The notes: generated by a model from the letters alone, not told the origin. A stretch of DNA of 64,000 nt from Syntrophorhabdaceae bacterium (GCA_026415675.1 JAOAGQ010000020.1:1-64000); one strand, 5' to 3'; counted from the first letter of the stretch, positions 1 to 41,972 are shown. Program-made: numbers and translations.

Positions 1-19
1 AGATGTGTATAAGAGACAG
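1..19. other. Tn5/Nextera mosaic-end adapter remnant
   Basis: Bases 1-19 read AGATGTGTATAAGAGACAG, which is the 19-bp Tn5 mosaic end used in Nextera libraries. It sits at the very first base and interrupts the cytochrome frame on the minus strand. It is therefore an untrimmed sequencing adapter at a contig end and not part of the organism's DNA. Confidence 0.96.
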
Positions 20-590
20 GTATATGGTATGCCCTTTTCAGACCGGTACCTGTTTTTCTCTCTTCGCCCCTGTATACATAAACAGGCCCTTTTTCATGGC
101 AGGCTGAACAGGGCGAAACCTTCTTTCCTGTATTATAATGGTGGCATTCATCACAACTATCGGATATCTCAATATGTTTTTTGTGGGGGAATTTAACAGG
201 ATTATAGATTCTCGCTATGGTTTTTATGTATATAGTTTCCAACCCTTTTTTCATGTCTTTGTGGCATCCCCCGCATGATACAGGACCACTTATTTTTTTG
301 TGACATCCAATACACATACCGTGGTATGCCTCTTTCAAAGGGGTACCCTTTTTTTGATCTACCCCATGGCATTTGATGCAAGGATGGGGCTCTTTATCCT
401 TGCTTCTGTGGTGGCATTCGCTGCAATTCGATTCTATTTCCATATGCTTTTCATGATCAAAGAGAACAGGGCCGTATACCTCTGCAAGCCTGCCGAGCTT
501 CATCGTATCGGACATGCCCTTCCCTTCTAAAAGGCCGAATATGACCGTTGAAATTATCAAAATGGGGATTAACTTAAAGTGAGGTTTCAT
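20..590 (-). CDS. Multiheme cytochrome c, class III (c3/c7)-like, 3'-truncated
   Basis: Secreted c-type cytochrome, last gene visible in the leftward operon. The minus-strand frame starts at ATG 590-588, preceded by AAGGGG, and begins with a signal peptide (MKPHFKLIPILIISTVIFG). It carries at least six heme motifs in about 190 residues: CSECH, CIKCH, CIGCH, CGGCH, CDECH and CSACH. FDHEKH and FPHKKH segments supply the likely distal histidines typical of cytochrome c3/c7. It follows the H-protein-like gene by 24 bases. Its likely role is the periplasmic electron acceptor or donor of the NrfD/FeS membrane complex encoded upstream. The C-terminus is missing because the contig ends in adapter, so the full heme number is unknown. 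No long frame is open on the plus strand here. Confidence 0.85.
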
Positions 591-614: not shown

Positions 615-1307
615 TCAATCGGTGAGAAAAATCTTTTTTAACTCCTCGTTCCATCTTTCACCGAAGAGCATCTTTCCCATTCCCGTGACAGGGGTACCCC
701 CATCTGCATAGAGAATCCCCAGACCATTCTCCATTTTTCTTTTAATTAAACCTATGGAGAGATCAAGCCAGCTCCTTGCGAGTCTTCCCGTAAGAAGGTG
801 TTTGAAATCCGTCCTTATATCGTAAGGCTTTACAAGAAAGAGCCATCCTCTGCCGTAGGGGTCATCGTTTACAACCTTTGGGTTATCAAGGGCCTCCCTG
901 TTCACTTCTATTACCTCACCCCTAACAGGGGATAACATATCGACCGTCGCCGAATCTATTTTGAACCTAAAGGCAGGCTTACCCTGTTCTACTTTTGAGC
1001 CGATAGAAGGGGTCTCCACTTTCTCTATATGACCCATCATCTTTTGGGCAAAATCATCTATCCCTACCTTTATGAATCCACCCTGTTCTGCTGCCCAACT
1101 GTGCCCCTGATGGTAATAAAGAGAGTCGGGTAGATTAAACCAATCATCTATCATCGTTGATGTGTCTTCTGTCTCTGCCTCAGAAGTATTTACAGCAGGT
1201 CTATGGAGCATACGCCAGAAAAGCATCAACATAAGAAGAAAGGCGATCACCAAAAGATACTCTAAGTGTTTCGTTGCAAATATGTCTTCATACCTGAATC
1301 CTGACAT
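615..1307 (-). CDS. Membrane-anchored glycine-cleavage H-protein-like subunit
   Basis: 230 aa. An N-terminal transmembrane helix (about residues 15-33, YLLVIAFLLMLMLFW) is followed by a GcvH/lipoyl-like domain (about 50-150). Recognisable H-protein features are the WAAEQGGFIKVGIDDFAQKMMG segment, SPVRGEVIEVN and DPYGRGWLFLVKP. The residue aligning with the lipoylated lysine of GcvH (ESVKAASD) is serine in KIDSATVDM, so lipoylation is not expected. The C-terminus carries an ADGG motif (LGILYADGG) also found in two neighbours. It lies between the NrfD-like and cytochrome genes of one operon. The function is inferred to be structural or electron-transfer related within the complex and is not glycine catabolism; no gcvT or gcvP is present. 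Confidence 0.75.
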   Translation of the reverse strand: MSGFRYEDIFATKHLEYLLVIAFLLMLMLFWRMLHRPAVNTSEAETEDTSTMIDDWFNLPDSLYYHQGHSWAAEQGGFIKVGIDDFAQKMMGHIEKVETPSIGSKVEQGKPAFRFKIDSATVDMLSPVRGEVIEVNREALDNPKVVNDDPYGRGWLFLVKPYDIRTDFKHLLTGRLARSWLDLSIGLIKRKMENGLGILYADGGTPVTGMGKMLFGERWNEELKKIFLTD

Positions 1308-1358
1308 GTTAACCTCCGTTTATTTTAGCCCGATAGATATTCTCTATGTGGCCACCTA

Positions 1359-2552
1359 TTAGGTACTTTCTCTCAAAACAGGCATTCTGTTCACAATCCA
1401 TCGGAATACCCATATCTCGGCAAAAACTATAGCAAGGGTTATTACAATTTCCGATATGCTTGGGAAATACCTTTCCGATAGCGGCAGGTACCACTTGTAT
1501 GCGATAAATACATAGTTGAAGCGGTTTATTATGATTCCCACCATACTTAGAACCGCAGCAACCCGTACTACCTTCAAATTTCTGTATCTCCCCCCATTTA
1601 GAAAGAGAAAGCAGGGGAATAGGACAAAACCTATCACCTCAACCATATACCATAGCCCCATTCCGGAAAAAATATAAACCCAGTGTTTTCCGTGGATGAA
1701 AACAAGGAGCTTCAAGAAAAAATAGCCGAAGAGGGCTCCTGCACAGGCCCTGGAAAGGCTTAAGATAATATCGTCCACCTCTTTTTTGTGTTCTTCGTTT
1801 AATTGTTCACTAAACACCTTATGACTTATAGAACTCTCCACAATAACCATTGAAAGACCGGCAAAAATACTGGACACAAAAAATAGAATGGGTATAAATT
1901 CCGTATACCATAAGGGATGGATGTTCGGTTTCGCCATCATGACCAGGGCCCCTAAACCCGATTGATGGAGGGTAGAGAGGGTGATACCAAAAATTACGGT
2001 TCCCACCGTTAAAGCTGAGAGTACCTTTTTTGCCTTCTGTAAATTAAGCCACTCAGCAATGACAGGGGAAAATTCTATAAATTCGGCGATCATGTAAAGG
2101 AGGAAGTGCCAAGCCACAAGAAACAGCACAGAATTTACACCGAAATGGTTTCCTATCAAGGGGTTTAATATGTTCCACCATCTACCGAGATCAAGAAAGA
2201 TCGCCCCTGCATAGAACACATAGGCGAGAAATCCATTTAAAACGGTCGCCCTTATGATTAAGTGGTATTTCTTTGCATTGAGTATATATACGACAAAGGT
2301 TAATACATAGGCCCCCCCAGCAAAGGCAACCCCTGTCATTACATCAAACCCTATCCATATGCCCCAGGGGAAACTCTGGGAAAGGTTTGTCGTTGCCCCA
2401 AGACCATAAAATATCCTGTAAAAAATGAGAAAGGCCCCGGCTATTATTATTGGTAGGGTAACTACATTAAACACTGTGAATATTTTTCCTTTTGGTTTAA
2501 GTTCATTCAGAAGAAATCTTTTTAAATTTATCTCTGCTTCCATCATTTTCAA
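1359..2552 (-). CDS. NrfD/HybB-like polytopic membrane subunit
   Basis: 397 aa with about ten hydrophobic helices. The opening FPWGIWIGFDVMTGVAFAGGA and the FLDLGRWWNI segment are typical of the NrfD/PsrC/HybB family, the quinone-interacting membrane anchors of complex iron-sulfur enzymes. The start overlaps the upstream iron-sulfur gene by four bases (ATGA), which implies translational coupling. Family knowledge says such proteins exchange electrons between the menaquinone pool and a periplasmic FeS subunit. Here the FeS partner is the preceding gene, and the cytochrome at 20-590 is the probable outer partner. No catalytic molybdopterin subunit is in the visible operon. Confidence 0.9.
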   Translation of the reverse strand: MKMMEAEINLKRFLLNELKPKGKIFTVFNVVTLPIIIAGAFLIFYRIFYGLGATTNLSQSFPWGIWIGFDVMTGVAFAGGAYVLTFVVYILNAKKYHLIIRATVLNGFLAYVFYAGAIFLDLGRWWNILNPLIGNHFGVNSVLFLVAWHFLLYMIAEFIEFSPVIAEWLNLQKAKKVLSALTVGTVIFGITLSTLHQSGLGALVMMAKPNIHPLWYTEFIPILFFVSSIFAGLSMVIVESSISHKVFSEQLNEEHKKEVDDIILSLSRACAGALFGYFFLKLLVFIHGKHWVYIFSGMGLWYMVEVIGFVLFPCFLFLNGGRYRNLKVVRVAAVLSMVGIIINRFNYVFIAYKWYLPLSERYFPSISEIVITLAIVFAEIWVFRWIVNRMPVLREST

Positions 2553-3451
2553 TCTTCTCTCTTTGTTATCCTATTGACGGCTAATAGAAATAAAGGCCAC
2601 AATACAAGCACAAAAGGCACAGAATAGAGAAAACCTGTTGTATATTCAGGCAAAGGGGTGTTTCCCATATCAGTTCTAAAACCTATCTCCTCAAAAGGGA
2701 CACTAGATAGATATAGCCAGCATGTTCCTCCTACCTCATGCTCCCCGAATATGTAGTGGTAATATTTTGATGGATGTTTATATATTCTCGTCCTTGCCTC
2801 TTCTATCAAATCCCTTTTCGTACCGAACAACAGCGCCTCTTGAGGACAGGCCATAACACATGCCGGATACCCCCCGACCTTTATCCTGTCCCAGCACATA
2901 CTGCATTTTTCTATAGTTGGATAGGCACTTTCATACTCAAATTTGGGGATATCGAAAGGACAAGAAAACATACAGAGGCGGCATCCCATACAGTTTTTAT
3001 CCCATGTAACAGGGCCTTCCTCTCTCTTTCTCATCGCTTTTACGAGACAAGCCGATACACATGCCGGAAGGGCACAGTGCATGCATTGTCTTTTTACGAA
3101 TACATCCCCTGCCCTTGTCTTATACCTGTTCACTACCGTCCACTGTTTTACGGTGGTATCCCTTTTTTTATCGAAAATATTTTTATCTTCTGTATCGGGG
3201 GAAGGATGATTGTTCGCCTCTGCACAGGCAAATTCACAGGCCCTGCACCCTATACAACGGGTCGTATCACAGAGAACCCCGTAAAATTCTTTTTCAGCCC
3301 CTTGGGATTTCTTAGGGCCAAACAGGTTGCATAGCATAAAGCCGAAAACACCACTTCCGGTTAGTCTAAAGAAATCCCTTCGACCAATCTTTATGTCGGT
3401 ACTTTTCTTTATCCCCTTCCTTTTTTTTATAACCCTATCCATTGAATGCAT
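2549..3451 (-). CDS. Tat-exported 4Fe-4S protein, HybA/DsrO-like, with C-terminal membrane anchor
   Basis: About 300 aa from the ATG at 3451, which has AGGTG five bases upstream and lies 19 bases after the preceding stop; an ATG at 3487 would overlap that gene by 17 bases. A twin-arginine signal (GRRDFFRLTGSGVFGFML) precedes four ferredoxin-type cysteine groups: CIGCRACEFAC, CMHCALPACVSAC, CMGCRLCMFSC and CSMCW...CVMAC, giving four probable [4Fe-4S] clusters. A C-terminal helix (LYSVPFVLVLWPLFLLAV) anchors it as in HybA. It is the periplasmic electron-wire subunit pairing with the NrfD-like protein that follows with a 4-base overlap. Confidence 0.88.
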   Translation of the reverse strand: MHSMDRVIKKRKGIKKSTDIKIGRRDFFRLTGSGVFGFMLCNLFGPKKSQGAEKEFYGVLCDTTRCIGCRACEFACAEANNHPSPDTEDKNIFDKKRDTTVKQWTVVNRYKTRAGDVFVKRQCMHCALPACVSACLVKAMRKREEGPVTWDKNCMGCRLCMFSCPFDIPKFEYESAYPTIEKCSMCWDRIKVGGYPACVMACPQEALLFGTKRDLIEEARTRIYKHPSKYYHYIFGEHEVGGTCWLYLSSVPFEEIGFRTDMGNTPLPEYTTGFLYSVPFVLVLWPLFLLAVNRITKRED

Positions 3452-3470
3452 AAAAACACCTATATCAGAA

Positions 3471-3719
3471 TCATCTCTTCTTTTCATCCCTTCTCTCACC
3501 ACCATCCGCCATTGTAAGGCCAAGGTCGGGATCTACCATAACCGTTGCCCCTTCCCTATATTCCTTCTCCAGCTTTTTTCTTTTGAATGCATAAGACCAG
3601 AGAATTTGAAATCCACCGCCGATAGTCCTCCCAAGAGGGAAGAAGACAAGATAGAACATATAAATCAGTATTAAAAAGGCCAGTATCGAACCGGCTATAA
3701 GCAAAAAAGTTGAACCCAT
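3471..3719 (-). CDS. Small single-span membrane protein with C-terminal ADGG motif
   Basis: 82 aa. One hydrophobic helix (about residues 5-27) is followed by a basic cytoplasmic-type stretch and the tail DPDLGLTMADGGERRDE. The ADGG tail resembles the C-terminal motif of both H-protein-like proteins in the operon (GVTVADGGE, GILYADGG). It lies 13 bases after the 3733-4629 gene and 19 bases before the iron-sulfur gene, so it is part of the same transcript. I do not recognise a named family. A small accessory or assembly subunit of the NrfD complex is the most natural inference. Confidence 0.7.
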   Translation of the reverse strand: MGSTFLLIAGSILAFLILIYMFYLVFFPLGRTIGGGFQILWSYAFKRKKLEKEYREGATVMVDPDLGLTMADGGERRDEKKR

Positions 3720-3732
3720 GGTTTCCTCCTTT

Positions 3733-4629
3733 CTATGAAAAAAACATTTTAATCAGTAGGTTGCCCTTTATGCCCAGGGCATCCCTTAAGCCCCTCCATA
3801 TCTCCCCACCATCGGCTACGGTAACGCCTATCTCACTTTCGATAAAGTGTCTCAATTTGAAGGCTTCCTGCTCTAACCATGCCTTTGCCTTTTCGCCGTA
3901 AAAGATAGATTCATTGTTCTCAATAGATTTAAAACCGGAATAAGGGACCATCTCCACAAGCCATCCATCACCATAAGGGTCGAGGTTAATGAGTGTTCCA
4001 TTTGAAGAAACGGCATCGTTAACATTGTTTATGTAACCTTTTACAGGAAAATCCAGTATCACCACACCGTCATCGGTTTTTAATGTTACGAAGACATTTT
4101 TTGGGTGGTTCCACCTTCCCTTTTCCGGTAACAACACCTCTTTTATCGGGCCCATTATAAACTGTCCAAAATCATCGATACCAATCTTTATCCCATCAAA
4201 ACTTCTCTTTATCCACAGATGGTTACTGCAATAATAGGCTTCCCTTTCCATTATAAATCCCTGAACTTTTTCCGTATCGGTATCCGCTTCTTTAAACTCC
4301 TTGTAATACCTGCAGTCTCTATATGCATTGCTGCTGCATGGATTTAATAATTTGAGGCTGTAGACAGGGACATACTTTTTTACAGGGGATAAATCACAGT
4401 AAAGCATGTTCTCGGTACCCAAAAAATAGCATATACTCATCTCTGTCATGGTCTCAGGGGCGTGCTTCTGATAAATCGGGCATGTTCTGTACGATTTATT
4501 GAAACAAAGGTTCTCATCCTCAAAAAGCCTATCGAGGGGAAGCATCTTTTTAAGAGGGTACGCCTTGCAGTAAACGACCTTTTTTTCTTTCAAAAAAGGA
4601 CAATCCTCAAACCTTTTTTTATCGTCCAT
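3733..4629 (-). CDS. Duplicated four-cysteine module fused to a lysine-less H-protein-like domain
   Basis: 298 aa, first gene of the leftward operon. Residues 10-50 and 67-106 form two matching modules with cysteines at 10/21/42/50 and 67/78/98/106, near-identical spacing, and shared CxFL, YC, PxKK and YRxC words; each could bind a metal or FeS cluster. Residues about 130-235 match the GcvH fold (WIKRSFDGIKIGIDDFGQFIMG, DPYGDGWLVEMVP). The position of the lipoyl lysine is occupied by aspartate (KTDDGVVILDFPVKG), so it should not carry lipoate. The C-terminus holds GVTVADGGE. No signal peptide or membrane helix is seen, so it is probably cytoplasmic. Function unknown; context points to the membrane redox complex. 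Confidence 0.72.
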   Translation of the reverse strand: MDDKKRFEDCPFLKEKKVVYCKAYPLKKMLPLDRLFEDENLCFNKSYRTCPIYQKHAPETMTEMSICYFLGTENMLYCDLSPVKKYVPVYSLKLLNPCSSNAYRDCRYYKEFKEADTDTEKVQGFIMEREAYYCSNHLWIKRSFDGIKIGIDDFGQFIMGPIKEVLLPEKGRWNHPKNVFVTLKTDDGVVILDFPVKGYINNVNDAVSSNGTLINLDPYGDGWLVEMVPYSGFKSIENNESIFYGEKAKAWLEQEAFKLRHFIESEIGVTVADGGEIWRGLRDALGIKGNLLIKMFFS

Positions 4630-4653
4630 TGTTCATCACCCTATGGTTTTTAA

Positions 4654-4670
4654 GCAAAATCCATGCCGCC
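4654..4670 (-). promoter_or_regulatory. Candidate sigma-54 (-24/-12) promoter of the NrfD operon
   Basis: Read on the minus strand the sequence is GGCGGCATGGATTTTGCTT. It has GG and GC separated by exactly 10 bases, the defining spacing of RpoN promoters (consensus TGGCAC-N5-TTGCW). It lies 25 bases upstream of the first operon gene. The -24 element is imperfect (CGGCATG), and no activator site was identified. Confidence 0.45.
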
Positions 4671-4812: not shown

Positions 4813-5370
4813 CTATTTGGCGCTATTCTTTTTGATTTTATCGATCATACTATGAAGAAGATTTAAACATGCGGTGCAGAAGTTCAGGCTCTTTTTATCA
4901 ACGTCTATTATATTATTAGCTAAGGCCATTACGCATGCCCTATCCTTACAGTGGAGTAAACCAAAGGTATGGCCAAGCTCGTGTTTTATCTCCTTTATTA
5001 ACCTTCTATGTAGTAATAGGTGATTCTGGGGTAAACCATAATAGCCCTGTTCGAGACGGGCCGTTGACACAACGGCAACTTTCCCGTTTAACTGGGCCTC
5101 CCCAAATACAAAAGTTAAAATGGGTATGAAAAGGTCGAAAGGTACTATGCCCACCATTTTTAACGTATTTTCCGGTGTATTGTTTAATATTTCTTTTAAA
5201 ATACTCGTGGAATGGTATTGTCTTCTATTTTTGTCGTAAAAAGATTCGGGAGAGATGGGGAGATCAAGTTTTCTAATAGGGAAACCGAAATCCCTTACGA
5301 GACTCTCTTCAATTTCCTTTACCCACAATCGTTTTTCCAATTCGGCTGTAAGGGCTATATAAATTATCAA
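4813..5370 (-). CDS. amzA: Archaemetzincin family zinc metalloprotease
   Basis: 185 aa. The extended zinc-binding motif HELGHTFGLLHC (HExxHxxGxxHC, about residues 129-140) is followed by CVM and a CxxC pair (NFCTACLNL). This is the archaemetzincin arrangement, in which four cysteines bind a second structural zinc. No signal peptide is seen, so it is presumably cytoplasmic. Family members are putative aminopeptidases whose bacterial substrates are not established. It is transcribed leftward as a single gene between the NrfD operon and the cytochrome cluster. There is no evident functional link to either. Confidence 0.9.
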   Translation of the reverse strand: MIIYIALTAELEKRLWVKEIEESLVRDFGFPIRKLDLPISPESFYDKNRRQYHSTSILKEILNNTPENTLKMVGIVPFDLFIPILTFVFGEAQLNGKVAVVSTARLEQGYYGLPQNHLLLHRRLIKEIKHELGHTFGLLHCKDRACVMALANNIIDVDKKSLNFCTACLNLLHSMIDKIKKNSAK

Positions 5371-5464
5371 TTCACATTCCCGGGGTCATGTCTCTCGATA
5401 TGATTATAGCAGATAAATGTTAAAGGGGTCATGTATATTTTTTCAACATTTATTCTATTTTTAC

Positions 5465-5493
5465 TTGACAAGATTGGGCATAAATATTTTAAT
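5465..5493 (+). promoter_or_regulatory. Sigma-70-type promoter for the first multiheme cytochrome operon
   Basis: TTGACA (5465-5470), a 17-base spacer, and TTTAAT (5488-5493). It lies 32 bases before the chosen ATG at 5525, which itself has a strong AAGGAAGGGA ribosome site. It fits only the 5525 start, because the more distal in-frame ATG at 5417 lies upstream of the promoter. Confidence 0.6.
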
Positions 5494-5524
5494 TTCAAAA
5501 TCACATAGTTGGGGAAGGAAGGGA

Positions 5525-7480
5525 ATGGTATTAAGGATACTACTTCTGCTTATTATTTTTTTATCGGGCCAACCTCTACTCGGGATAGAGAACAAAGAAT
5601 GTTTTGATTGTCACGGGAATAAAGACATCCTAAAGATGTCCGAAGAAGAGAGAGATGCCATGGTGGTAACACCGAAACAGAAACATAAACCCCGGGAGAG
5701 GAAGTACAACCTTTACATAGCGGAAGGTACTTTCAACAGATCGTCCCACAGCACCCTGTACTGCACGGATTGTCACATAAGCATAAGAGATATACCCCAT
5801 AATAAATGGACAGAACCGGTAAGCTGCCAAAGATGCCATCCAGCAACAACAAAGCAATATGCCCTAAGCAACCATTATAAAATAAGTAATGCCAAATGCT
5901 ACGATTGCCATAATCCCCACGAATCAAGAACATACAGAGAACTATCTGTGAAAGAAAGGTCGAATATCTGCCTTGGTTGTCATAAAAAAGGGGGTCACCA
6001 ATGGCTCCCTGAAAGAGAGCTCCACTTCAGCAGTCTCGAATGCTCCATCTGCCACTCCCCGTCCGCGGAAAAAGAGATGGTCCTCTTTATCTCTCCCTCA
6101 AAAAACAGAAGACCCTTAACCTACGATGAAATAAAAAAGGCCCTCCCTGGACTTAAAGGTTCCATCGAAAATATCTTAGATACACATTCGAATAAAAACA
6201 TCGATACAGAAGAGATAAAAGCGTTTCTTTCCAATCTGGAGAAGGGGGGAATAAAATCACCGAGGCTTGCCGGAGACGGGCTCGTAACAAAAACATCCCA
6301 TGATTTCACGAGGATTATACCGGAAGCAAGAGACTGCACCATGTGCCATAAACCTTTCGTTTATTTTTACTCAAAGGTCTCAATGAAAATACCGACCAAA
6401 GAAGGTTGGAAGACTTTTTCCGCAGACAAAGAAATAATCAACAAGCTCCCTGTGATTCCTGCGAAAGACGCATATTTCGGGACCGTTCATAGAAAAAATG
6501 GTGTTGAATGTATCGAATGTCATGCCTATCAAAGTGTCATAAGAGAAGCGGAGAAGTTTAAACTCAAAGAAATGAAAGAGCTTGTATGTGGTACGAGATG
6601 TCATAAAGAGATCATGGATGAGTATAAAGGGAGTATCCACTACAAGGTCCACGAAAATTTCTGTCTCGACTGTCATGAACCCCATCCAAGTGTCCCTTAT
6701 GTAAGACTCAACACCGAACAGAGAAGGGCAATTTGTATAAAATGTCATAAGGAAACGGAGAAACAACATAGATGGCAGGCGCAGCAGACGCTCCACTGTA
6801 GATATGTAGAATGTACCATGTGCCACTCCCCGAAAGCGAAAAAGGGGATTGTTTTGTATCTGAGAGGGATTGACCACAAAGGATCGGAAAGGCAGCTTGA
6901 AAGCAATGATATACTCGAACTTATCGGTTCAAAGCATCGTGATCTGCAAAAGGTAATAGATAGAGATGGCAATAAAATCCTCGATGAGCATGAAGTCGCA
7001 TATTTCATCAAATTACTGAATAGACCCGAAATATTAAAAAGAAAGGGTCTCGATAGGGTAGAGATGGGTATCAATCTATCTGTTATAAGACCCTACCATA
7101 ATTTTACCGAAAAATTATCAAAGGCAAAGGACTGCTCCCTCTGCCACTCCGCAAGTGGTGAAGGTCTCGAGAGTCTCGTCCTCCAGATACCGGATACAGA
7201 TAAAAAGAGTTTGACCATTCCAATAGAAAAAGATGCGATTGTGGCCTTTCTCGCTATGCCGGGTTTGAGTAACTTCTATCTTTTGGGAGGTAAAAAAATC
7301 ACAAAACAGGATATACTCCTTTTCTGGGAGAAAGAGCCCAGAGAAGCCCTTATAAATTTGGGATTCAAGATGATAGATATCCTTGGGATGTTCTTTTTAG
7401 CGTCTGCCTTCCTCTTTGTTGGCATTCATGGAACGATAAGGATACTAACAAGACCTATGAGAAAAAATAAAAAGGATTAG
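5525..7480 (+). CDS. 13-motif multiheme cytochrome c with duplicated EF-hand-containing module
   Basis: 651 aa from ATG 5525, giving a clean signal peptide (MVLRILLLLIIFLSGQPLLG). An in-frame ATG 36 codons upstream is less likely. Twelve CxxCH motifs and one CxxxCH (CGTRCH) are visible. The protein is an internal duplication: each half ends its heme cluster with CSICHSP or CTMCHSP, then has an acidic loop resembling an EF-hand (DTHSNKNIDTEE about residue 219; DRDGNKILDEHE about residue 479), then a further CTMCH or CSLCH motif. A C-terminal helix (about 612-632) anchors it. It is probably a periplasmic electron conduit partnered by the b-type cytochrome that follows after 4 bases. Confidence 0.88.
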   Translation: MVLRILLLLIIFLSGQPLLGIENKECFDCHGNKDILKMSEEERDAMVVTPKQKHKPRERKYNLYIAEGTFNRSSHSTLYCTDCHISIRDIPHNKWTEPVSCQRCHPATTKQYALSNHYKISNAKCYDCHNPHESRTYRELSVKERSNICLGCHKKGGHQWLPERELHFSSLECSICHSPSAEKEMVLFISPSKNRRPLTYDEIKKALPGLKGSIENILDTHSNKNIDTEEIKAFLSNLEKGGIKSPRLAGDGLVTKTSHDFTRIIPEARDCTMCHKPFVYFYSKVSMKIPTKEGWKTFSADKEIINKLPVIPAKDAYFGTVHRKNGVECIECHAYQSVIREAEKFKLKEMKELVCGTRCHKEIMDEYKGSIHYKVHENFCLDCHEPHPSVPYVRLNTEQRRAICIKCHKETEKQHRWQAQQTLHCRYVECTMCHSPKAKKGIVLYLRGIDHKGSERQLESNDILELIGSKHRDLQKVIDRDGNKILDEHEVAYFIKLLNRPEILKRKGLDRVEMGINLSVIRPYHNFTEKLSKAKDCSLCHSASGEGLESLVLQIPDTDKKSLTIPIEKDAIVAFLAMPGLSNFYLLGGKKITKQDILLFWEKEPREALINLGFKMIDILGMFFLASAFLFVGIHGTIRILTRPMRKNKKD

Positions 7481-7484
7481 AGAC

Positions 7485-8111
7485 GTGTCAGAAAAACAGA
7501 TCAAAAAGGATAAGCTCGTTTCATTGACAATAAGAATATGGCATGTGATTCACGGAATTTCAATCTTTATACTGATTTTAACAGGTATCCACCTCAGATA
7601 TCCCGATCTCTTCGTTATCTTTGGTACTGTGAGAAAGGCGGTCCAGATTCACAATATAGTTGGTATTATTGTGACCCTCGACTATTTTCTCTGGTTTATC
7701 TATTATATCGTCAAAAAAGAGATGGTTCTCCATTATGTGCCCACCATATACGATTTTGGTAAGGGGACGATAAGGCAGGCTCAATATTATTTCTACCGTA
7801 TATTCTTCGGTGACCCCCCTCCTTTTCTCCCAACCCAAAAGAACAAATTCAACTCTCTACAGAAGATCACATACGCAGGTATAATGTTTATTTTTTTACC
7901 GATCCAGATTTTAACGGGGATACTCCTATGGGATATCGAACAGTTTTTGCCTGTGGTGGCGATCATGGGAGGTCTTAAGATCATAGATGCGGTCCATGTG
8001 ATAATCGGATATGTATTTGCCGCCTTTCTGATACTCCATATTTATCTTGCCACCTTAGGACATACCGTTCTTTCCCACTTTAAACTGATCATTTTCGGGT
8101 ACGAGGAATAG
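7485..8111 (+). CDS. Membrane b-type cytochrome (cytochrome b561/FdhI-like)
   Basis: 208 aa, GTG start 4 bases after the preceding stop. Four or five hydrophobic helices carry histidines at positions typical of di-heme b cytochromes: IWHVIHGISIF, VQIHNIVGI, IDAVHVIIGY and LILHIYLATLGH. The family oxidises menaquinol, or reduces it, and passes electrons to periplasmic cytochromes or dehydrogenases. Immediate coupling to the 13-motif cytochrome suggests a two-component quinone:cytochrome oxidoreductase. It is shorter and more divergent than the two paralogues at 9528 and 11269, lacking their HPLEYE tail. Confidence 0.85.
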   Translation: MSEKQIKKDKLVSLTIRIWHVIHGISIFILILTGIHLRYPDLFVIFGTVRKAVQIHNIVGIIVTLDYFLWFIYYIVKKEMVLHYVPTIYDFGKGTIRQAQYYFYRIFFGDPPPFLPTQKNKFNSLQKITYAGIMFIFLPIQILTGILLWDIEQFLPVVAIMGGLKIIDAVHVIIGYVFAAFLILHIYLATLGHTVLSHFKLIIFGYEE

Positions 8112-8195
8112 ATGTCAATAAAGGCAAAAAAAGAATGGTTCAACGTTTCTTTTTACAATTTTTCTTTATCGTTTAAGTATTGTTTGGAATTCATT

Positions 8196-8224
8196 TTGAC
8201 ATTGATATGCCCTTGTTATAGAAT
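8196..8224 (+). promoter_or_regulatory. Sigma-70-type promoter of the 8276-13741 cytochrome operon
   Basis: TTGACA (8196-8201), a 17-base spacer, and TAGAAT (8219-8224), close to consensus. It lies in the 164-base gap between the first cytochrome pair and the second, with the ATG 51 bases downstream. It implies that the second to fourth cytochromes can be transcribed separately from the first pair. Confidence 0.65.
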
Positions 8225-8275
8225 TCATATTCATTTCAGATTTATATGATAACAAAAAGGTAATATTTATCCGCT

Positions 8276-9541
8276 ATGATGATAGAAAAGATAAAGATAC
8301 TAAATAGAATGGGATTTAACTTTACCATTTTGATTTCATTTTTCATCTTTTTCTCCCCTTACCCCATGCTGGCCGTAAATGACGAGGTCTGTATATCCTG
8401 TCATGAAAAGAGACATACCGGGGAAGACAAAAAAGAGATGAGGTGGGGTACAGAATTTATAAAAAGGGACCTGAAAGGTTCTGTTCACAGACAACTCAAA
8501 TGCATCCAGTGCCACAGCGATGCCACCAGCATCCCCCATAAAAGGGGGCTATCAAAAGTCGATTGCACAAAATGCCACATGGATACAGGTAGATCCTTTT
8601 CAGAGAGTGTCCATGGAAGCTCTCTTTCTAAGGGGGAAAGGAACGCCCCCTCCTGTGTTACCTGTCACGGGGACCATAAGATACTAAAAATCACGGATCC
8701 GAGAGCCCCTGTCTTCAGGAACAACCAGTTGACACTATGCAGTGTATGCCATACGGACAAAGAGATACAGAAAAAATATAACCTTCCAGGCACTAAAGTG
8801 ATAAAGGCCTATGAAAGAAGTGTCCATGGCCGTATCATAAAAGAAGGTAAATCCATAAAGGCGGCGGTTTGTACGGACTGTCATGGGGCACATCTAATCC
8901 TTAAATCGAATGATACGAACTCAAAGACGAACAAGATGAATATACCCAATGTTTGCGGTAGATGCCATGTGGAGATATACAATGAATACAAATTGAGTAT
9001 CCATAGCAAGGCCTTAAAAGAGGGAAAGCTCGATAGCCCCAGTTGCACCGACTGCCACGGCGAACACACATTGACATTGGTCAGGGATCCCAATGCCACG
9101 GTCTATCTAAAAAATATACCTACCACCTGTGCAAAATGCCATGAGAATCAAGAATTGATAAAAAAATACCGTTTGCCTTCCGACCGTTATTCAAGTTATA
9201 TAGGGAGTTTTCACGGTGTTGCTTTAAAATATGGCAATGTAACAACCGCTAACTGTACAAGCTGTCATGAGGTTCACAGGATTCTCCCTGCTTCAGATCC
9301 TGAGTCGAGTATACATCCAAAAAACCTTTCCCTTACCTGTGGCAGATGCCATCCAGCAATGAAAAATGCAGCCAATATAGGAAAGATACACGTTGAGGCA
9401 AAAAAGGAGAGTTCCCTGGGTATGTACATCGTACGAAATTTCTACACATGGTTCATTGGGATAATGATGACACTCTTTGTGGCATACATTATACTCGATG
9501 TATACGGGATATTAAGGAGAAGGAGAAATGACAAAAAATAG
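8276..9541 (+). CDS. 11-motif multiheme cytochrome c with C-terminal membrane anchor
   Basis: 421 aa. A hydrophobic export signal (about residues 13-33) is followed by eleven CxxCH motifs (CISCH, CIQCH, CTKCH, CVTCH, CSVCH, CTDCH, CGRCH, CTDCH, CAKCH, CTSCH, CGRCH). There are many xSVHG or xSIHS segments that supply axial histidines, and a C-terminal helix (WFIGIMMTLFVAYIILDVYG). The ribosome site is poor, and an ATG at 8309 would also leave a signal peptide. The gene overlaps the next cytochrome b gene by 14 bases. It is similar in plan to the product of 10204-11259 (same SFHGVA, CASCHG/CTSCHE and DP-ST repeats), so the two probably arose by duplication. Confidence 0.88.
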   Translation: MMIEKIKILNRMGFNFTILISFFIFFSPYPMLAVNDEVCISCHEKRHTGEDKKEMRWGTEFIKRDLKGSVHRQLKCIQCHSDATSIPHKRGLSKVDCTKCHMDTGRSFSESVHGSSLSKGERNAPSCVTCHGDHKILKITDPRAPVFRNNQLTLCSVCHTDKEIQKKYNLPGTKVIKAYERSVHGRIIKEGKSIKAAVCTDCHGAHLILKSNDTNSKTNKMNIPNVCGRCHVEIYNEYKLSIHSKALKEGKLDSPSCTDCHGEHTLTLVRDPNATVYLKNIPTTCAKCHENQELIKKYRLPSDRYSSYIGSFHGVALKYGNVTTANCTSCHEVHRILPASDPESSIHPKNLSLTCGRCHPAMKNAANIGKIHVEAKKESSLGMYIVRNFYTWFIGIMMTLFVAYIILDVYGILRRRRNDKK

Positions 9542-10217
9542 GGAATATATAGAGCGCTTTACAGTTTCTGAGAGGATTATCCATATACTTCTATTCACTT
9601 CTCTGATCATCCTTAGCATAACAGGGCTCACCCTCAAATTCCACGAGACCTCCCTCGCCCAGTGGATCATAAAACTTGAAGGGGGTGTCCTTTTCAGGGG
9701 AAAAATTCACCGTTTTTTTGCATTAATTCTCATTGGGGTCTTCTTCTATCATATCCTAACAATAATGGTTACAAGAAGGGGTCATGAGTTTTTTCAAGAC
9801 ATGCTCTTTAAGAGAAAGGACCTGATAGACTGTAAGGGCCTGATTATGTACAATCTCGGATTGGTAAAAAATATGCCAAGATTTGGAAGATTTACCCCTA
9901 TACAGAAAATACAGTATTTCGCGGCAGGTGTCTCCGTTGTTATCCTTGGTTTATCAGGGTTTATGCTCTGGTTTGAGACGATTTTTATGATGATATTCCC
10001 GAAATGGGTTATCGATTTAAGCAGGATAGTCCATTCTTTTGAGGCAACCTTAGGTTTTATCATCCTCATAGTCTGGCATCTATACAACGTTCACCTAAAC
10101 CCCCAGGTCTTTCCAATGGATAAATCATGGCTCAATGGACTGATATCTAAAGAGGACCTAAGAGAGAGGCACCCCCTTGAATATGAGAGGATATACGGTA
10201 AAGATGAAGGCGCATAG
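9528..10217 (+). CDS. Membrane b-type cytochrome, FdhI/NapC-partner-like
   Basis: 229 aa, four predicted transmembrane helices. Histidines lie in ERIIHILLFTS, GKIHRFFALI, FFYHILTIM, RIVHSFEATLG and VWHLYNVHLNP. The C-terminal WLNGLISKEDLRERHPLEYERI is nearly repeated in the gene at 11269-12204, marking them as paralogues. Formate-dehydrogenase-gamma-type cytochromes b of this kind bind two hemes and interact with quinone. The start overlaps the upstream cytochrome by 14 bases and the end overlaps the downstream one by 14 bases. It therefore alternates with multiheme proteins as a translationally coupled unit. Confidence 0.87.
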   Translation: MTKNREYIERFTVSERIIHILLFTSLIILSITGLTLKFHETSLAQWIIKLEGGVLFRGKIHRFFALILIGVFFYHILTIMVTRRGHEFFQDMLFKRKDLIDCKGLIMYNLGLVKNMPRFGRFTPIQKIQYFAAGVSVVILGLSGFMLWFETIFMMIFPKWVIDLSRIVHSFEATLGFIILIVWHLYNVHLNPQVFPMDKSWLNGLISKEDLRERHPLEYERIYGKDEGA

Positions 10218-11259
10218 AATAGTTCTCCTTTTAATTTTCCTTGTAGTATTTCCTTCAATCCTTTCAGCACAGGAAAGGAGATGCTCTATCTGCCACGGAA
10301 AAAAAGATTTTAGTGTTAAAGATCCATCGGGGAAAACCCGCTCCCTATATGTTAATGAGAGTGTCTTATCGAATTCCTCTCACGGTAAACTGGCATGTAT
10401 GGATTGCCATACGGACGCCTTTGAGATCCCCCATGCAAAAAAACTGAAGAAGGTGGATTGCTCCGCCTGTCATGATAAGAGGCGTATCCTTGAAAAAGGA
10501 CCAGGCATTGACTATTTTCAATACCGGGAAAGCGTCCACGCAAAAGAACTAAAAAAGGGAAACAAGAAGGCCCCTGACTGTGCCTTATGCCATGGGAGTC
10601 ACGACATACTGAGTAAAAATGATATCAAATCAAGGGGCTACAGGCTAAACATTCCGGATAAAATATGCGGTAAATGCCACGAAAAGGCCCTATCAGAGTA
10701 TAGAAAGAGCGTTCATGGTTCATATACCACAAAAGGGGATATAACACCCCCTGTCTGTACAGACTGCCACACCGAACACGGTATAAAAAGGACCGCTGAT
10801 CCAACCTCGACGATATACGCCACAAACATAGTGGAGATGTGCGTGAAATGTCACGGGGATTACAGTATCATGCAAAAATACGGAAAGAAGACAGAGGAGG
10901 TTCAAACATACTATGAGAGCTTTCATGGTGTTGCAACAAAGTTTGGCGAAAAGAATATAGCCCACTGCGCGAGCTGTCATGGTTACCATGAGATTAGGTC
11001 AAAGGAGGATCCTCTATCCACCATTAATGTCAAAAACTTACCCGTTACGTGTGGACAGCCCAAATGCCACCCCGGAGCCACTGCAAACTTTGCCAAAGGA
11101 AAGGTTCATGTCAATCCAAAAAGTAGGGAGTCAGGTATCATTTTCTGGGTGGCCTTCGGGTTTAAATGGCTTACCATAACGGTTCTCATTGTACTCTTTG
11201 CCCATATTTTTTTAGATTTCCTAAGGAAGATGCAAGAGAAGAGAAAGAAGGGGATATAA
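10204..11259 (+). CDS. 9-motif multiheme cytochrome c with C-terminal membrane anchor
   Basis: 351 aa from ATG 10204, chosen because it gives a compact signal peptide (MKAHRIVLLLIFLVVFPSILSAQE); an ATG at 10177 adds nine residues. Eight CxxCH motifs plus one unusual Cx4CH (CGQPKCH, near residue 285) are visible. A C-terminal helix (FGFKWLTITVLIVLFAHIFLDF) matches the anchor of the 8276 cytochrome. Segments such as YESFHGVATKFG and DPTSTIYATNI are shared with that paralogue. It is presumably attached to the periplasmic face of the inner membrane and reduced by the adjacent b-type cytochromes. Confidence 0.87.
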   Translation: MKAHRIVLLLIFLVVFPSILSAQERRCSICHGKKDFSVKDPSGKTRSLYVNESVLSNSSHGKLACMDCHTDAFEIPHAKKLKKVDCSACHDKRRILEKGPGIDYFQYRESVHAKELKKGNKKAPDCALCHGSHDILSKNDIKSRGYRLNIPDKICGKCHEKALSEYRKSVHGSYTTKGDITPPVCTDCHTEHGIKRTADPTSTIYATNIVEMCVKCHGDYSIMQKYGKKTEEVQTYYESFHGVATKFGEKNIAHCASCHGYHEIRSKEDPLSTINVKNLPVTCGQPKCHPGATANFAKGKVHVNPKSRESGIIFWVAFGFKWLTITVLIVLFAHIFLDFLRKMQEKRKKGI

Positions 11260-11268
11260 CTACAGGAT

Positions 11269-12204
11269 ATGGAAGAAAACGAAAAAAAGAAGTGGCGCAT
11301 TGAGGCGATAGAAAGACTCCACAGGGAACTTGAAGAAGAGATAAAAGACGAAACAGGGTTTACCCTATCGGAAAAAGATTCAGAATGGATAAGGGATATT
11401 ATAAGAAGAGAGATCGGGGATAAGATAAAGACGAGATTCGAAGAGGTAAAAAGGGAGATATACGAAGAACTTACAAGAGATAGGAAGAGAGATATTTCAA
11501 AGGCCATAGAGGAAGGGGAGGTATTCTACAGGTTCGGCAAAAACATAAGGGCTCAACACTTTGTTTTGGCCGTAAGCACAACCCTTCTAATTATCACAGG
11601 CCTTCCTTTGAGGTTCCACGACTCTATAGTATTTAAATTTATCGTGTATCTTTTGGGGGGTATCCAAAATTCAACTTTTCTCCATAGGGTAGGGGCGGCA
11701 GGACTTATGTTCGTGTGCGTATGGCATATTTCATGGCTTGCCTTCACAAAGGAGGGGAGAAGAGAGTTTTTTGCCTTACTCCCAACACCGAAAGACCTGT
11801 TCGACATTATAAAAAACATTAAATATTTCCTTCGACTAAGCAACGAAAAGGCCAAATTCGACCGCTTCAGCTATATAGAGAAGTTCGATTACTGGGCCGT
11901 TTACTGGGGTGTTGTAATCATGGTGGGCTCCGGTCTTCTCCTTTGGTTTCAGGATGAGGCCCTCCTCTTTCTTCCAAAGTTCGTACTCGATGTGGCAAAA
12001 GAGATGCACAGGGATGAGGCCTTGCTCGCAACACTTGCCATCGTTATATGGCATATGTATAATGCCCATCTGAATCCTCACAAATTCCCAGGTACCCTTG
12101 TGATATGGAACGGCTTGATAACAAAAGAAGAGATGATGGAAGAGCATCCTCTCGAATACGAAAAAATCATCAAGAGACAGGAAGAAAAAGTTGGGGATAA
12201 TTAA
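11269..12204 (+). CDS. b-type cytochrome with charged N-terminal extension
   Basis: 311 aa. The first about 85 residues are highly charged and probably helical ([20 protein letters not shown] and following), then come four transmembrane segments. Heme-ligand candidates are in [27 protein letters not shown] and [16 protein letters not shown]. The C-terminal HPLEYEKI is shared with the 9528 gene. The cytoplasmic extension is absent from that paralogue and might be a docking surface or coiled coil. The gene begins 9 bases after the upstream stop, and its end overlaps the 15-motif cytochrome by 14 bases. Confidence 0.85.
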
Positions 12205-13741
12205 AACCTATAAGAGACACAAGAAGAAAATCCTGTATATTGGACTTACCATCGTCTTTGGTTATCTTGGGATCAATATCTTTTCCTACGGGGTTACCTA
12301 CAAACCGGAATCTTGCCTTGTGTGTCACATCATGCAACCCTATTATGAACAATGGAAGACATCGACTCATAACAAGGTGGGCTGTATAGAATGCCATCCT
12401 TATCGTCCAGGAACCATATTCCTATCAACCATCCGCTATATCACAGGGGCTTATCGCCTCCCCTTAAGGTCACACGTTGAGGATACGACCTGCACTACCT
12501 GCCACAGACTCGAATCGATCAAAGTTACAAATTATAAAGGCGTTCCCTTCAACCATACGGAACACATAAAAAAGTCAAAAAGGGGTAAGGCATTACACTG
12601 CACAAGCTGCCATTACTCCATCGTCCAGAGCAGTACCCATATAGATGTGGATAAGGACGTATGTATGCTCTGCCATTTTTATAATACCCCTATGGAATAT
12701 AACCAGAACTGTACTATATGCCACGGAGACAGAAGAAAAGAGGTAAAAATAGGGGAGGTCTCCTTTTCCCATGAGTTGTTTTTAAAAACAGGGGCCCGAT
12801 GCATAGAATGTCATAGTCAGACCTTAAAGGGTACAGGGGAAATCCCCGATGAAAGATGTCGGGGGTGTCATGTACAGAGAAAGGTGGAGGGAAGGGATGT
12901 AACAAGCCTTCACAAAACACATATATCGAAAAAGTACATAGACTGCTTTGAGTGTCATGGCAGGATGGAACATGGAAAAGAAACGACACATTTATCCAAA
13001 GCAATGGAACTCTCCTGTGGGGATTGCCATACAAACTCCCATAGTCCTGCCCAGGACATATATATGGGGATAGGGGCGAGGACCACAAAAAACCTGCCCT
13101 CCTCTATGTATCTATCAAAAGTCCGTTGTACAGGATGCCACACCCTTGATAAATCTATCCAGGAAAAGGAATCCCTTACCAAGACATGGGAGTCGAAAAA
13201 GAGGGCCTGCGTTTTCTGCCATCGGGAAGGCTTCGACAATATGGCTGAAGATTGGAAGAAGTCGATGGGTATATTAAACGATAACCTTACAAAATTAGTT
13301 CAAGAATACGGTGCAATGATAGAGCAGAAAAAAACCTCCCTTCCCGCAATCCTCGACTCATACAAAAAAGTTGAACATGACCTAAAACTAATAAAGACAG
13401 GAAGGGGTGAACACAACGTAAGGTATACATACGAGATCGGAAAAAATATCGTATCCACAATACAGGAAGGTTACAAAAAGATGGGTATTTCAAAGAAACT
13501 AAATATAACAAATTATTTATCAAAACCTGACGGCTACTGCTTGTTCTGCCATAATACTTTTAGACCCGAAAAAGATATCACCATAAAATCCATGTCCAAT
13601 CTTTCGTTTAACCATCAGATGCATGTAGAGATGGACATAGAATGTATAAAGTGTCACAATCCCAATTTACACAGGGCAGGTAGTTTAAATAAAACTGCGT
13701 GCAAAGAGTGCCATAAAGAGAATATATTGAGGGGAAAATAA
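12191..13741 (+). CDS. 15-motif cytochrome c with NapC/NirT-type N-terminus
   Basis: 516 aa, TTG start at 12191 overlapping the previous gene. A single N-terminal helix ([23 protein letters not shown]) is left uncleaved as a membrane anchor. [19 protein letters not shown] is characteristic of the NapC/NirT/NrfH quinol-dehydrogenase family. Fifteen CxxCH motifs are visible, far more than the usual four. Between motifs 12 and 13 lies a heme-free helical stretch of about 110 residues (about 350-450). It may receive electrons from quinol and store or relay them in the periplasm. It is the last gene of the operon, with a strong terminator starting at the stop codon. Confidence 0.87.
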
Positions 13742-40010: not shown

Positions 40011-41972
40011 ATGCGTGTAGGGGTTTTTATCTGCCACTGCGGAAACAATATTGCAGGTACCGTTGATGTGGCAAAGGTAGCGGAAGAGACGAGGAAGATA
40101 CCTGGAGTGGCATATGCAACCACATACATGTATACCTGTTCTGAGCCTGGTCAAGAAGAGATAAAAGAGGCAATAAAAAGGGAGAAGCTCGATAGAATAG
40201 TTGTTGCCGCATGTTCCCCGAGGATGCACGAACTGACCTTTAGAAGAACTATAGAAAAGGCAGGCCTCAACAGATATTTCTTCGAGATGGCAAACATAAG
40301 GGAACACGTTTCCTGGATCGGGGAAAACAGGGAACTGAACACAAAAAAGGCAATAGAAGCGGTCAGGATGGCCGTTGCTAAGGTTATGCAGAATAAGCCC
40401 CTTTACTCTTCTTCCTTTAAGATAAACAAAAGGGTACTTGTGATCGGAGGAGGGGTTGCAGGGATGCAGGCTGCCCTTGACTGTGCAGACGGAGGCCTTG
40501 AGGTTGTCCTTGTAGAAAAAAGTCCAAGTGTCGGCGGGATGATGGCCCGCCTCGACAAGACCTTCCCGACAGTAGACTGTTCTATATGTATCTTGGGCCC
40601 TAAAATGGTCGATGTGGCCCAGCATGAGAAGATAAAGCTCTATGCCTTCTCCGAGATAGAGGATATCAAAGGGTATGTAGGAAATTATCAGATCAAGATA
40701 AAGAAAAAGGCAACATATGTGGACTGGTCTAAATGTACAGGGTGCGGGGCCTGTATGGAGAAGTGTCCCTCAAAAAACGCATACGATGCATTCAACTTCG
40801 GGGTTGCCCCGACAAGGGCTATAAACATACCATTCCCCCAGGCGATACCTAAAAAGGCAAAGATAGACCCAAAATACTGCAGGCAGTTTACAAAAGGTAA
40901 ATGCGGGGTATGTGCAAAGATATGCCCCACAAAGGCGATAAACTACGAAATGGTGGACGAGATAGTCACAGAGGAAGTAGGGGCTATCATTGTAGCAACG
41001 GGGTATAGCTTAATAGATATGGAAAAACTCCCCGAATATGGGGGTGGTAAGTACCCTGATGTGATATCCGGTATCCAGTATGAGAGGCTTTTAAATGCAT
41101 CGGGACCTACGGCAGGCCATATTGTAAGGCCCTCTGACCATGAAGAACCTAAGACCATCGTCTTTGTCTCCTGTGCAGGTTCCCGAGACAAATCCATAGG
41201 CATTCCATACTGTTCCAACTTCTGCTGTATGTACATAGCAAAACAGGCGATACTCACTAAAGATCATATCCCCGATTCCCAGTCCTATGTCTTCTACATG
41301 GATATACGCTCCCCGGGAAAGGGATATGACGAGTTCACAAGAAGGGCACAGGAAGAATATGGTGTCCATTATATAAGGGGAAGGGTATCGAGGATATACC
41401 CAAAGGGTAAAAAAATGGTAGTGAGGGGAGCGGATACACTCCTTGGTACCCAAGTTGAGATTGAGGCTGATCTCGTAGTGCTCGGCACAGCGGTAGTAGC
41501 AAATAGTGACGCTGCCCATATGGCAGAGAAACTCCACATATCCTATGACACCTCAGGCTTCTATGTGGAGAGTCACCCAAAATTAAGACCCGTTGAGACA
41601 AATACTTCCGGGGTATTCCTTGCCGGTGCCTGTCAGGGCCCTAAAGACATACCTGCCTCCGTTGGCCAGGGCAGTGCCGCTGCAAGTAAAGTTCAGGCTC
41701 TATTCTCTAAGGATATGCTCGAATCGGATCCTGCGATTGCGAGGGTGAATATAAATACGTGTGTAGGATGTCTTAAGTGCGTTTCAACCTGTCCCTTCCA
41801 GGCGATAAAAGATAAGGAGCTAAAGGATGGCAGGGTCGTTGCGGATGTGATCGAGACGGTCTGCGCCGGATGCGGCGTCTGTACTTCTACCTGTCCCTGC
41901 GGTGCCATTCAGCTACAGCATTTTACAGATAACCAGCTATTAGCGGAGGTCAATGCCCTATGCCAGATGTAG
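40011..41972 (+). CDS. hdrA: Heterodisulfide reductase-like subunit A (flavoprotein)
   Basis: 653 aa, the normal length. FAD site VLVIGGGVAGMQAALDCADGGL and SVGGMMARLDKTFPTVDCSICILGP; ferredoxin-type clusters CTGCGACMEKCP, CGVCAKICP, CVGCLKCVSTCP and CAGCGVCTSTCP. HdrA is the bifurcating flavin subunit: it splits electron pairs from FlxABCD between ferredoxin and HdrB. It starts directly after the hdrB stop. The commonly seen selenocysteine position is occupied by cysteine here. Confidence 0.96.
   Translation: MRVGVFICHCGNNIAGTVDVAKVAEETRKIPGVAYATTYMYTCSEPGQEEIKEAIKREKLDRIVVAACSPRMHELTFRRTIEKAGLNRYFFEMANIREHVSWIGENRELNTKKAIEAVRMAVAKVMQNKPLYSSSFKINKRVLVIGGGVAGMQAALDCADGGLEVVLVEKSPSVGGMMARLDKTFPTVDCSICILGPKMVDVAQHEKIKLYAFSEIEDIKGYVGNYQIKIKKKATYVDWSKCTGCGACMEKCPSKNAYDAFNFGVAPTRAINIPFPQAIPKKAKIDPKYCRQFTKGKCGVCAKICPTKAINYEMVDEIVTEEVGAIIVATGYSLIDMEKLPEYGGGKYPDVISGIQYERLLNASGPTAGHIVRPSDHEEPKTIVFVSCAGSRDKSIGIPYCSNFCCMYIAKQAILTKDHIPDSQSYVFYMDIRSPGKGYDEFTRRAQEEYGVHYIRGRVSRIYPKGKKMVVRGADTLLGTQVEIEADLVVLGTAVVANSDAAHMAEKLHISYDTSGFYVESHPKLRPVETNTSGVFLAGACQGPKDIPASVGQGSAAASKVQALFSKDMLESDPAIARVNINTCVGCLKCVSTCPFQAIKDKELKDGRVVADVIETVCAGCGVCTSTCPCGAIQLQHFTDNQLLAEVNALCQM

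Follow-up and report, generated by a model that had tools for sequence, protein, structure and literature searches.

What are two proteins with the fold of the glycine cleavage H-protein, both lacking the lipoyl lysine, doing in a respiratory operon? The question is raised by a minus-strand operon in a 64,000-nucleotide stretch of a Syntrophorhabdaceae bacterium genome (GCA_026415675.1, JAOAGQ010000020.1:1-64000), referred to here as the window. The original prediction placed at 615-4629 an NrfD-family membrane protein, a four-cluster ferredoxin with a twin-arginine translocation (Tat) signal, a c3-like cytochrome, a small membrane protein and two GcvH-fold proteins, GcvHa and GcvHb, and proposed a dedicated membrane redox complex that reuses the H-fold without its cofactor. 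The operon is real, with Pfam matches among its products, and its genes lie where they were placed apart from the cytochrome, which is present but sits outside that interval, at 590-21; the operon also extends further upstream, to an archaemetzincin gene at 5370-4813. The proposed complex is supported but incomplete, since a sensor histidine kinase, a sigma-54 regulator, the archaemetzincin, a sister form built on HdrA and a set of regulatory fusions had been missed. Gene counts over related loci show that the operon is co-inherited with two or three genes for H-fold proteins that do not conserve the lipoyl lysine, and with genes for a diheme sensor kinase, a sigma-54 regulator and an archaemetzincin. 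Judging from sequence, we slightly favor the view that the system is a quinone/cytochrome-c oxidoreductase of the HybAB/HmcBC class, in which cofactor-less H-fold subunits on the cytoplasmic face would act as signal-controlled adaptors.

A gene set conserved across phyla

A scan with an alignment of the membrane-anchored H-like protein, GcvHa, returned 232 relatives, of which the best 80, all from metagenome-assembled genomes, were examined. The titles of these 80 name about 16 bacterial phyla: Deltaproteobacteria, Gemmatimonadota, Bacteroidota with Ignavibacteria and Chlorobiota, Calditrichota, Planctomycetota, Nitrospinae, Nitrospirae, Acidobacteria, Rokubacteria, Schekmanbacteria, Zixibacteria, Krumholzibacteriia, Eisenbacteria, Glassbacteria, Lentisphaerae and Bdellovibrionales. 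Individual labels of such genomes may be in error, but not plausibly all of them. NrfD remains 60-69% identical to the window protein across this range, and a gene set spread so widely is probably important to uncultured anaerobes.

The composition of the set was counted in 50 loci, each of at least 12 kb. NrfD and the ferredoxin are each found in 49. At least two GcvH-like genes occur in 46 loci, and a sigma-54 regulator likewise in 46; 43 loci encode a histidine kinase and 42 an archaemetzincin. The usual order is an H-like gene, the ferredoxin, NrfD, GcvHa, GcvHb, kinase, regulator and archaemetzincin (peptidase family M54), and in several lineages a c3-type or bigger multiheme cytochrome accompanies the NrfD operon. 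A check of the neighborhood thus finds the gene association outside this contig and across many phyla. In the open-licence literature we found nothing that joins GcvH with NrfD, or NrfD with an archaemetzincin, and came upon no description of the gene set there. The membrane core is a variant of known complexes, while the surrounding cassette matches nothing we could name.

H-fold proteins without the lipoyl lysine

GcvHa (615-1307, minus strand; Pfam GCV_H, 2.3e-24) consists of an N-terminal membrane helix (residues 10-35), an H-fold domain and a C-terminal extension. In GcvHb (3733-4629, minus strand; GCV_H, 1.6e-14), two four-cysteine modules precede the H-fold domain, which is followed by a C-terminal helical extension; the helix anchor of the one and the cysteine modules of the other are as originally read. 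The AlphaFold models of both proteins match the solved H-protein 1onl in Foldseek. The GcvHa model has a predicted local distance difference test score (pLDDT) of 86 overall and 96-98 across the H domain, with a target template modeling (TM) score of 0.92, and the GcvHb model has a pLDDT of 87 and a target TM score of 0.90. The absence of a signal peptide and the positive-inside rule would place both proteins on the cytoplasmic face.

The position of the lipoyl lysine is occupied by Ser119 in GcvHa (bases 951-953, minus strand; alignment to 1onl) and by Asp187 in GcvHb (bases 4069-4071, minus strand; alignment to 3hgb and 1onl), and the alignments to these solved H-proteins are gap-free nearby; the replacements given in the original prediction hold. 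The earlier reading would have failed if homologues carried the lysine and were lipoylated, but the lysine is not conserved: among 46 anchored proteins the residue is Ser in 28, Gly in 8 and Ala in 3 (39 of 46 together), Lys in 3 and another residue in 4. The lysine is likewise not conserved in classes b and c of the H-like proteins. The genome itself, which is 99% complete, has no GcvP (GDC-P) and no canonical GcvH, and its best LipA score is 20.6 bits against a cut-off of 310. The two H-like proteins score 84.7 and 51.8 bits with the GcvH equivalog model, below its cut-off of 115.85. Because the lysine is not conserved and the genome lacks GcvP, a LipA above cut-off and a canonical GcvH, lipoylation of GcvHa or GcvHb appears very unlikely. 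A relic of the glycine cleavage system is ruled out by the missing GcvP and LipA and by conservation of the operon across phyla. What is left is an ancient carrier-protein fold that has been retained after loss of its cofactor site and tied to respiration and signaling instead.

Relatives of these proteins vary in their accessory regions. Some GcvHb relatives, such as L128:4589-5404, carry a different four-cysteine box, CxWMxxGxxxYKLCDxxYxCxxCPFD, in place of the modules of the window protein, and neither kind of box has a Pfam match. In the protein at L192:6136-7824, the GcvH-like domain lies C-terminal to a membrane helix and to a large extracytoplasmic N-terminal region, which has no Pfam match and looks like a solute-binding protein. 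Three GcvH-like genes with Ala or Gly at the lipoyl position stand in tandem, without NrfD, at L042:11002-13112 (genome G049).

The membrane core

Transcription runs from GcvHb through a small membrane protein (sm82), the ferredoxin, NrfD and GcvHa to the c3-like cytochrome. The NrfD-family quinone-reactive subunit (1359-2552, minus strand; Pfam NrfD, 3.1e-10) has about 10 helices and is HmcC/HybB-like, scoring 393 bits with the NCBIfam model NF045714 for HmcC (cut-off 550) and sharing 28% identity with HybB. In HybB, Asp109 and Ser129 serve the quinone, while Arg89, Tyr99, Glu148, His184 and Arg329 serve proton movement (PMC8076601). The corresponding quinone residues of NrfD, Asp121 and Ser141, are each conserved in 57 of 58 homologues, and the equivalents of the five proton-path residues in 57-58 of 58.

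The periplasmic four-cluster [4Fe-4S] ferredoxin (2549-3523, minus strand; Pfam Fer4_11, 1.5e-18) is HmcB/HybA-like, with 327 bits against NF045715 for HmcB (cut-off 420) and 30% identity to Escherichia coli HybA. It carries the Tat motif RRDFF and a C-terminal helix, and its start may alternatively be the ATG at 3487. The one-helix sm82 (3471-3719, minus strand) belongs to a family (F8) present in eight loci and has no Pfam or NCBIfam match. The c3-type multiheme cytochrome (21-590, minus strand; Pfam Cytochrom_CIII, 7e-21) is incomplete and has a false C-terminus, because a Nextera mosaic-end adaptor, AGATGTGTATAAGAGACAG, was left at the contig end and occupies window positions 1-19; six CxxCH motifs lie ahead of the cut. 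As originally stated, there is no catalytic molybdoenzyme in the operon or adjoining it.

Archaemetzincin, sensor kinase and promoter-like site

Directly upstream of GcvHb, the archaemetzincin gene (4813-5370, minus strand) is the cluster's first gene. Its product exceeds the cut-off of NF033823 (166.6 bits against 145), matches Pfam M54 (6e-25) and contains the active-site motif HELGHTFGLLHC..CVM..CTAC, read directly from the sequence; 38 of 41 relatives keep this zinc/active-site motif intact. Across 395 genomes of the phylum, the presence of GcvH-like genes is associated with that of M54 genes at an odds ratio of 33.5 (p 2.5e-40, kinship between genomes being ignored), and on 66 of 97 contigs compared the M54 gene lies within 10 kb of a GcvH-like gene. 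Bacterial archaemetzincins thereby gain concrete candidate partners, along with the candidate recognition motif described below.

The sensor regions of the kinases carry paired c-heme motifs: all 47 contain CxxCH, and 40 of the 47 contain CX4CH. One kinase matches the Mcp40H-20 sensor family weakly, a family that we take to be a c-heme PAS-type sensor of Geobacter. A sigma-54-type -24/-12 promoter-like site, CGGCATGGATTTTGCT, immediately precedes GcvHb at 4653-4668 on the minus strand. By our own simple weighting of the published consensus, it is the only site scoring at least 6 on either strand of the 64 kb (shuffle p 0.0008). Of 51 related operons, 14 are preceded by such a site, where 1.3 would be expected.

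A portable tail motif

Several proteins of the system share a motif, LGxTMADGG, near their C-termini. It appears as GVTVADGG in the tail of GcvHb (3806-3828, minus strand), as GLTMADGG within the C-terminal tail LGLTMADGGE of sm82 (3499-3521, minus strand) and as LGILYADGG in the extension of GcvHa (bases 696-722, minus strand). In its strict form, [LIVMF]G.T[MLVA].DGG, it is found in 52 of 1157 open reading frames of the named loci, every one of them GcvH-like, sm82 or NrfD: it sits in the C-terminal extensions of GcvH-like proteins, in the tails of sm82 (12 of 13 relatives) and in the C-terminal tails of four NrfD proteins (loci L128, L132, L139 and L141, mostly Syntrophus-like). Over 594,499 residues there are 85 matches in the forward sequences, not all independent since some loci are present in both sets, compared with one in reversed and none in shuffled sequences. 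As a DNA pattern the motif is not specific, with seven matches in one genome, two of them inside the operon, so the claim rests on the protein counts. Its occurrence in unrelated proteins suggests that the carriers have a common reader, for which M54 is a candidate.

A sister form with HdrA and regulatory fusions

Elsewhere in the phylum, some genomes have the cassette of GcvH-like, M54, kinase and regulator genes next to HdrA, MvhD or HdrB; all four kinds of cassette gene are present in 7 of 11 HdrA loci. The soluble kinases of these loci lack a heme motif and, with rare exceptions, any membrane helix, while the majority of kinases from NrfD loci combine two helices with the heme pair. Two HdrA proteins (L101:9433-12840 and L103:7652-11047) end in a fused GcvH-like domain, also without the lipoyl lysine. 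In five Bacteroidota loci, a membrane-anchored response-regulator receiver domain is fused to a GcvH-like domain (L123:828-2033, L144:6723-7907, L145:6656-7819, L149:3426-4589 and L195:6587-7786). These receiver fusions point to regulation, beyond structure alone. Since the cassette recurs with HdrA, the kinases differ by form and the receiver fusions exist, we favor a role for the H-fold proteins as putative signal-controlled adaptors. Within the window, a gene at 40011-41972 encodes an HdrA-like flavin and iron-sulfur protein that has no linkage to the operon.

Genomic surroundings

The operon lies on a contig of 89,782 bases in an assembly of 2.56 Mb. Beside it, at window positions 5417-13741, is a divergent gene cluster that encodes three membrane cytochromes of the b561 type as well as four multiheme cytochromes, with 12, 11, 8 and 15 CxxCH motifs. 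Two of its genes, those for the 687-residue cytochrome and the first b561 protein, are found beside the operon in related genomes as well (loci L035, L088, L086 and L091). No relative was found on viral contigs.

Proposed mechanism and alternatives

In a quinone/cytochrome-c oxidoreductase with H-fold adaptors, menaquinone on the periplasmic side of NrfD would exchange electrons with the periplasmic cytochromes by way of the ferredoxin, coupled to proton movement, a route suggested by the retention in NrfD of the quinone and proton residues of HybB. The anchored GcvHa and the soluble, cysteine-rich GcvHb would serve at the cytoplasmic face as cofactor-free docking or regulatory subunits. The kinase may sense the periplasmic redox state by its c-hemes and, through sigma-54, switch the operon on; in Bacteroidota it may also act directly on the membrane-anchored fusion of receiver and H-fold. 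The weakest step is that the exposed LGxTMADGG tails could form a recognition element by which M54 or another partner assembles, processes or removes subunits. A broader proposal, which we put forward tentatively and with the balance tilting against it, is that the kinase, regulator, peptidase and H-fold proteins form an undescribed redox-control cassette fitted to two unrelated machines, the membrane NrfD complex with a diheme-sensor kinase and the cytosolic HdrA with a soluble kinase, and that LGxTMADGG works as a transferable tag which the peptidase or some other cassette member recognizes.

Some observations weigh against the oxidoreductase with signal-controlled adaptors. Every functional step in it is inferred. 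The kinase and regulator of this genome stand side by side on a separate contig (C66), and of the 113 genomes that encode GcvH-like proteins, 15 gave no M54 match. One of these 15, G412, retains the motif, so M54 is not its only possible reader, and in the GcvHa model the motif forms the loop joining two helices, at modest confidence (pLDDT 61-74). Of the 46 anchored proteins, 35 also have a lysine immediately after the lipoyl position.

The regulatory genes invite the opposite emphasis, in which the NrfD complex is mainly a redox sensor whose cytoplasmic H-fold proteins read electron flow and signal to the kinase and regulator, respiration being secondary. This would suit the dedicated kinase, regulator and peptidase of almost all loci, the receiver fusions and the reappearance of the cassette beside another redox enzyme, HdrA, where its kinase is soluble and free of heme. 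A pure sensor fits less well with the complete set of quinone and proton-path residues in NrfD, or with the c3 or larger multiheme cytochromes alongside it in several lineages, and we regard it as rather unlikely. The receiver fusions and the H-like proteins of cytosolic HdrA loci also make it decidedly unlikely that the H-fold proteins act simply as subunits for structure or assembly and take no part in signaling, the kinase, regulator and peptidase controlling only expression and turnover, even though a conserved fold, an anchoring helix on GcvHa and a position beside NrfD are what such subunits would have.

Two further accounts were considered. The complex might be a diverged Hmc-type system that sends electrons across the membrane to a cytoplasmic partner encoded elsewhere, for instance HdrA, which would dock on the H-fold proteins. 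HmcB and HmcC are indeed the closest NCBIfam models, and H-like proteins occur beside and fused to HdrA in the sister loci; however, the operon has no HmcE/HmcF-like gene, the scores fall under the Hmc cut-offs, and neither the H-like proteins nor NrfD has a cofactor to carry electrons across, which leaves this account a slim chance. The H-like proteins might also have kept lipoate or a different attached group, carried either by the lysine that follows the lipoyl position or by the GcvHb cysteine modules, at which a metal site is possible. The next residue is Lys or Arg in 41 of 46 anchored proteins, but it is Ala in the window protein (SAT), classes b and c do not conserve the lysine, and the genome has no LipA. 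In E2 domains, a lysine moved by one position is not known to be lipoylated, and we give a retained lipoate or similar group a very slight chance indeed.

Comparison with known systems

The Hmc complex of sulfate reducers is among the known systems closest to the membrane core, HmcB and HmcC providing the closest NCBIfam models for the ferredoxin and NrfD, and it shares the arrangement of a periplasmic cytochrome, a four-cluster ferredoxin and NrfD. Unlike Hmc, the operon scores below both model cut-offs (327 of 420 bits for HmcB, 393 of 550 for HmcC), has no 16-heme HmcA and no HmcE or HmcF (no CCG gene) among its genes up to the contig end, and adds H-fold proteins, a kinase, a regulator and a peptidase. 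The HybA and HybB subunits of Hydrogenase-2 are 28-30% identical and have the quinone and proton-path residues in common, while the operon lacks the NiFe large and small subunits and has a c3-type cytochrome in their place. Membership in either Hmc or Hyb is rejected on the scores below cut-off and the missing subunits.

The peptidase resembles known archaemetzincins in its intact active-site motif (38 of 41) and in exceeding the NF033823 cut-off, and differs in an operon partnership of a kind not found in the open-licence literature. The H-like proteins share with GcvH its fold (TM 0.92 to 1onl) and sequence family (PF01597), but they lack the lipoyl lysine, come from a genome without GcvP or LipA, and add a membrane helix or cysteine modules and a C-terminal extension bearing the DGG motif. 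The LbpA lipoate-binding proteins of the sHdr sulfur oxidation system have a strictly conserved lipoyl lysine in 95 proteins (PMC6067878). That lysine is not conserved here, and its absence rejects membership in the LbpA family. What the two have in common is that GcvH-like proteins are associated with redox complexes and not with glycine cleavage, and that the sister form described here is also linked to Hdr.

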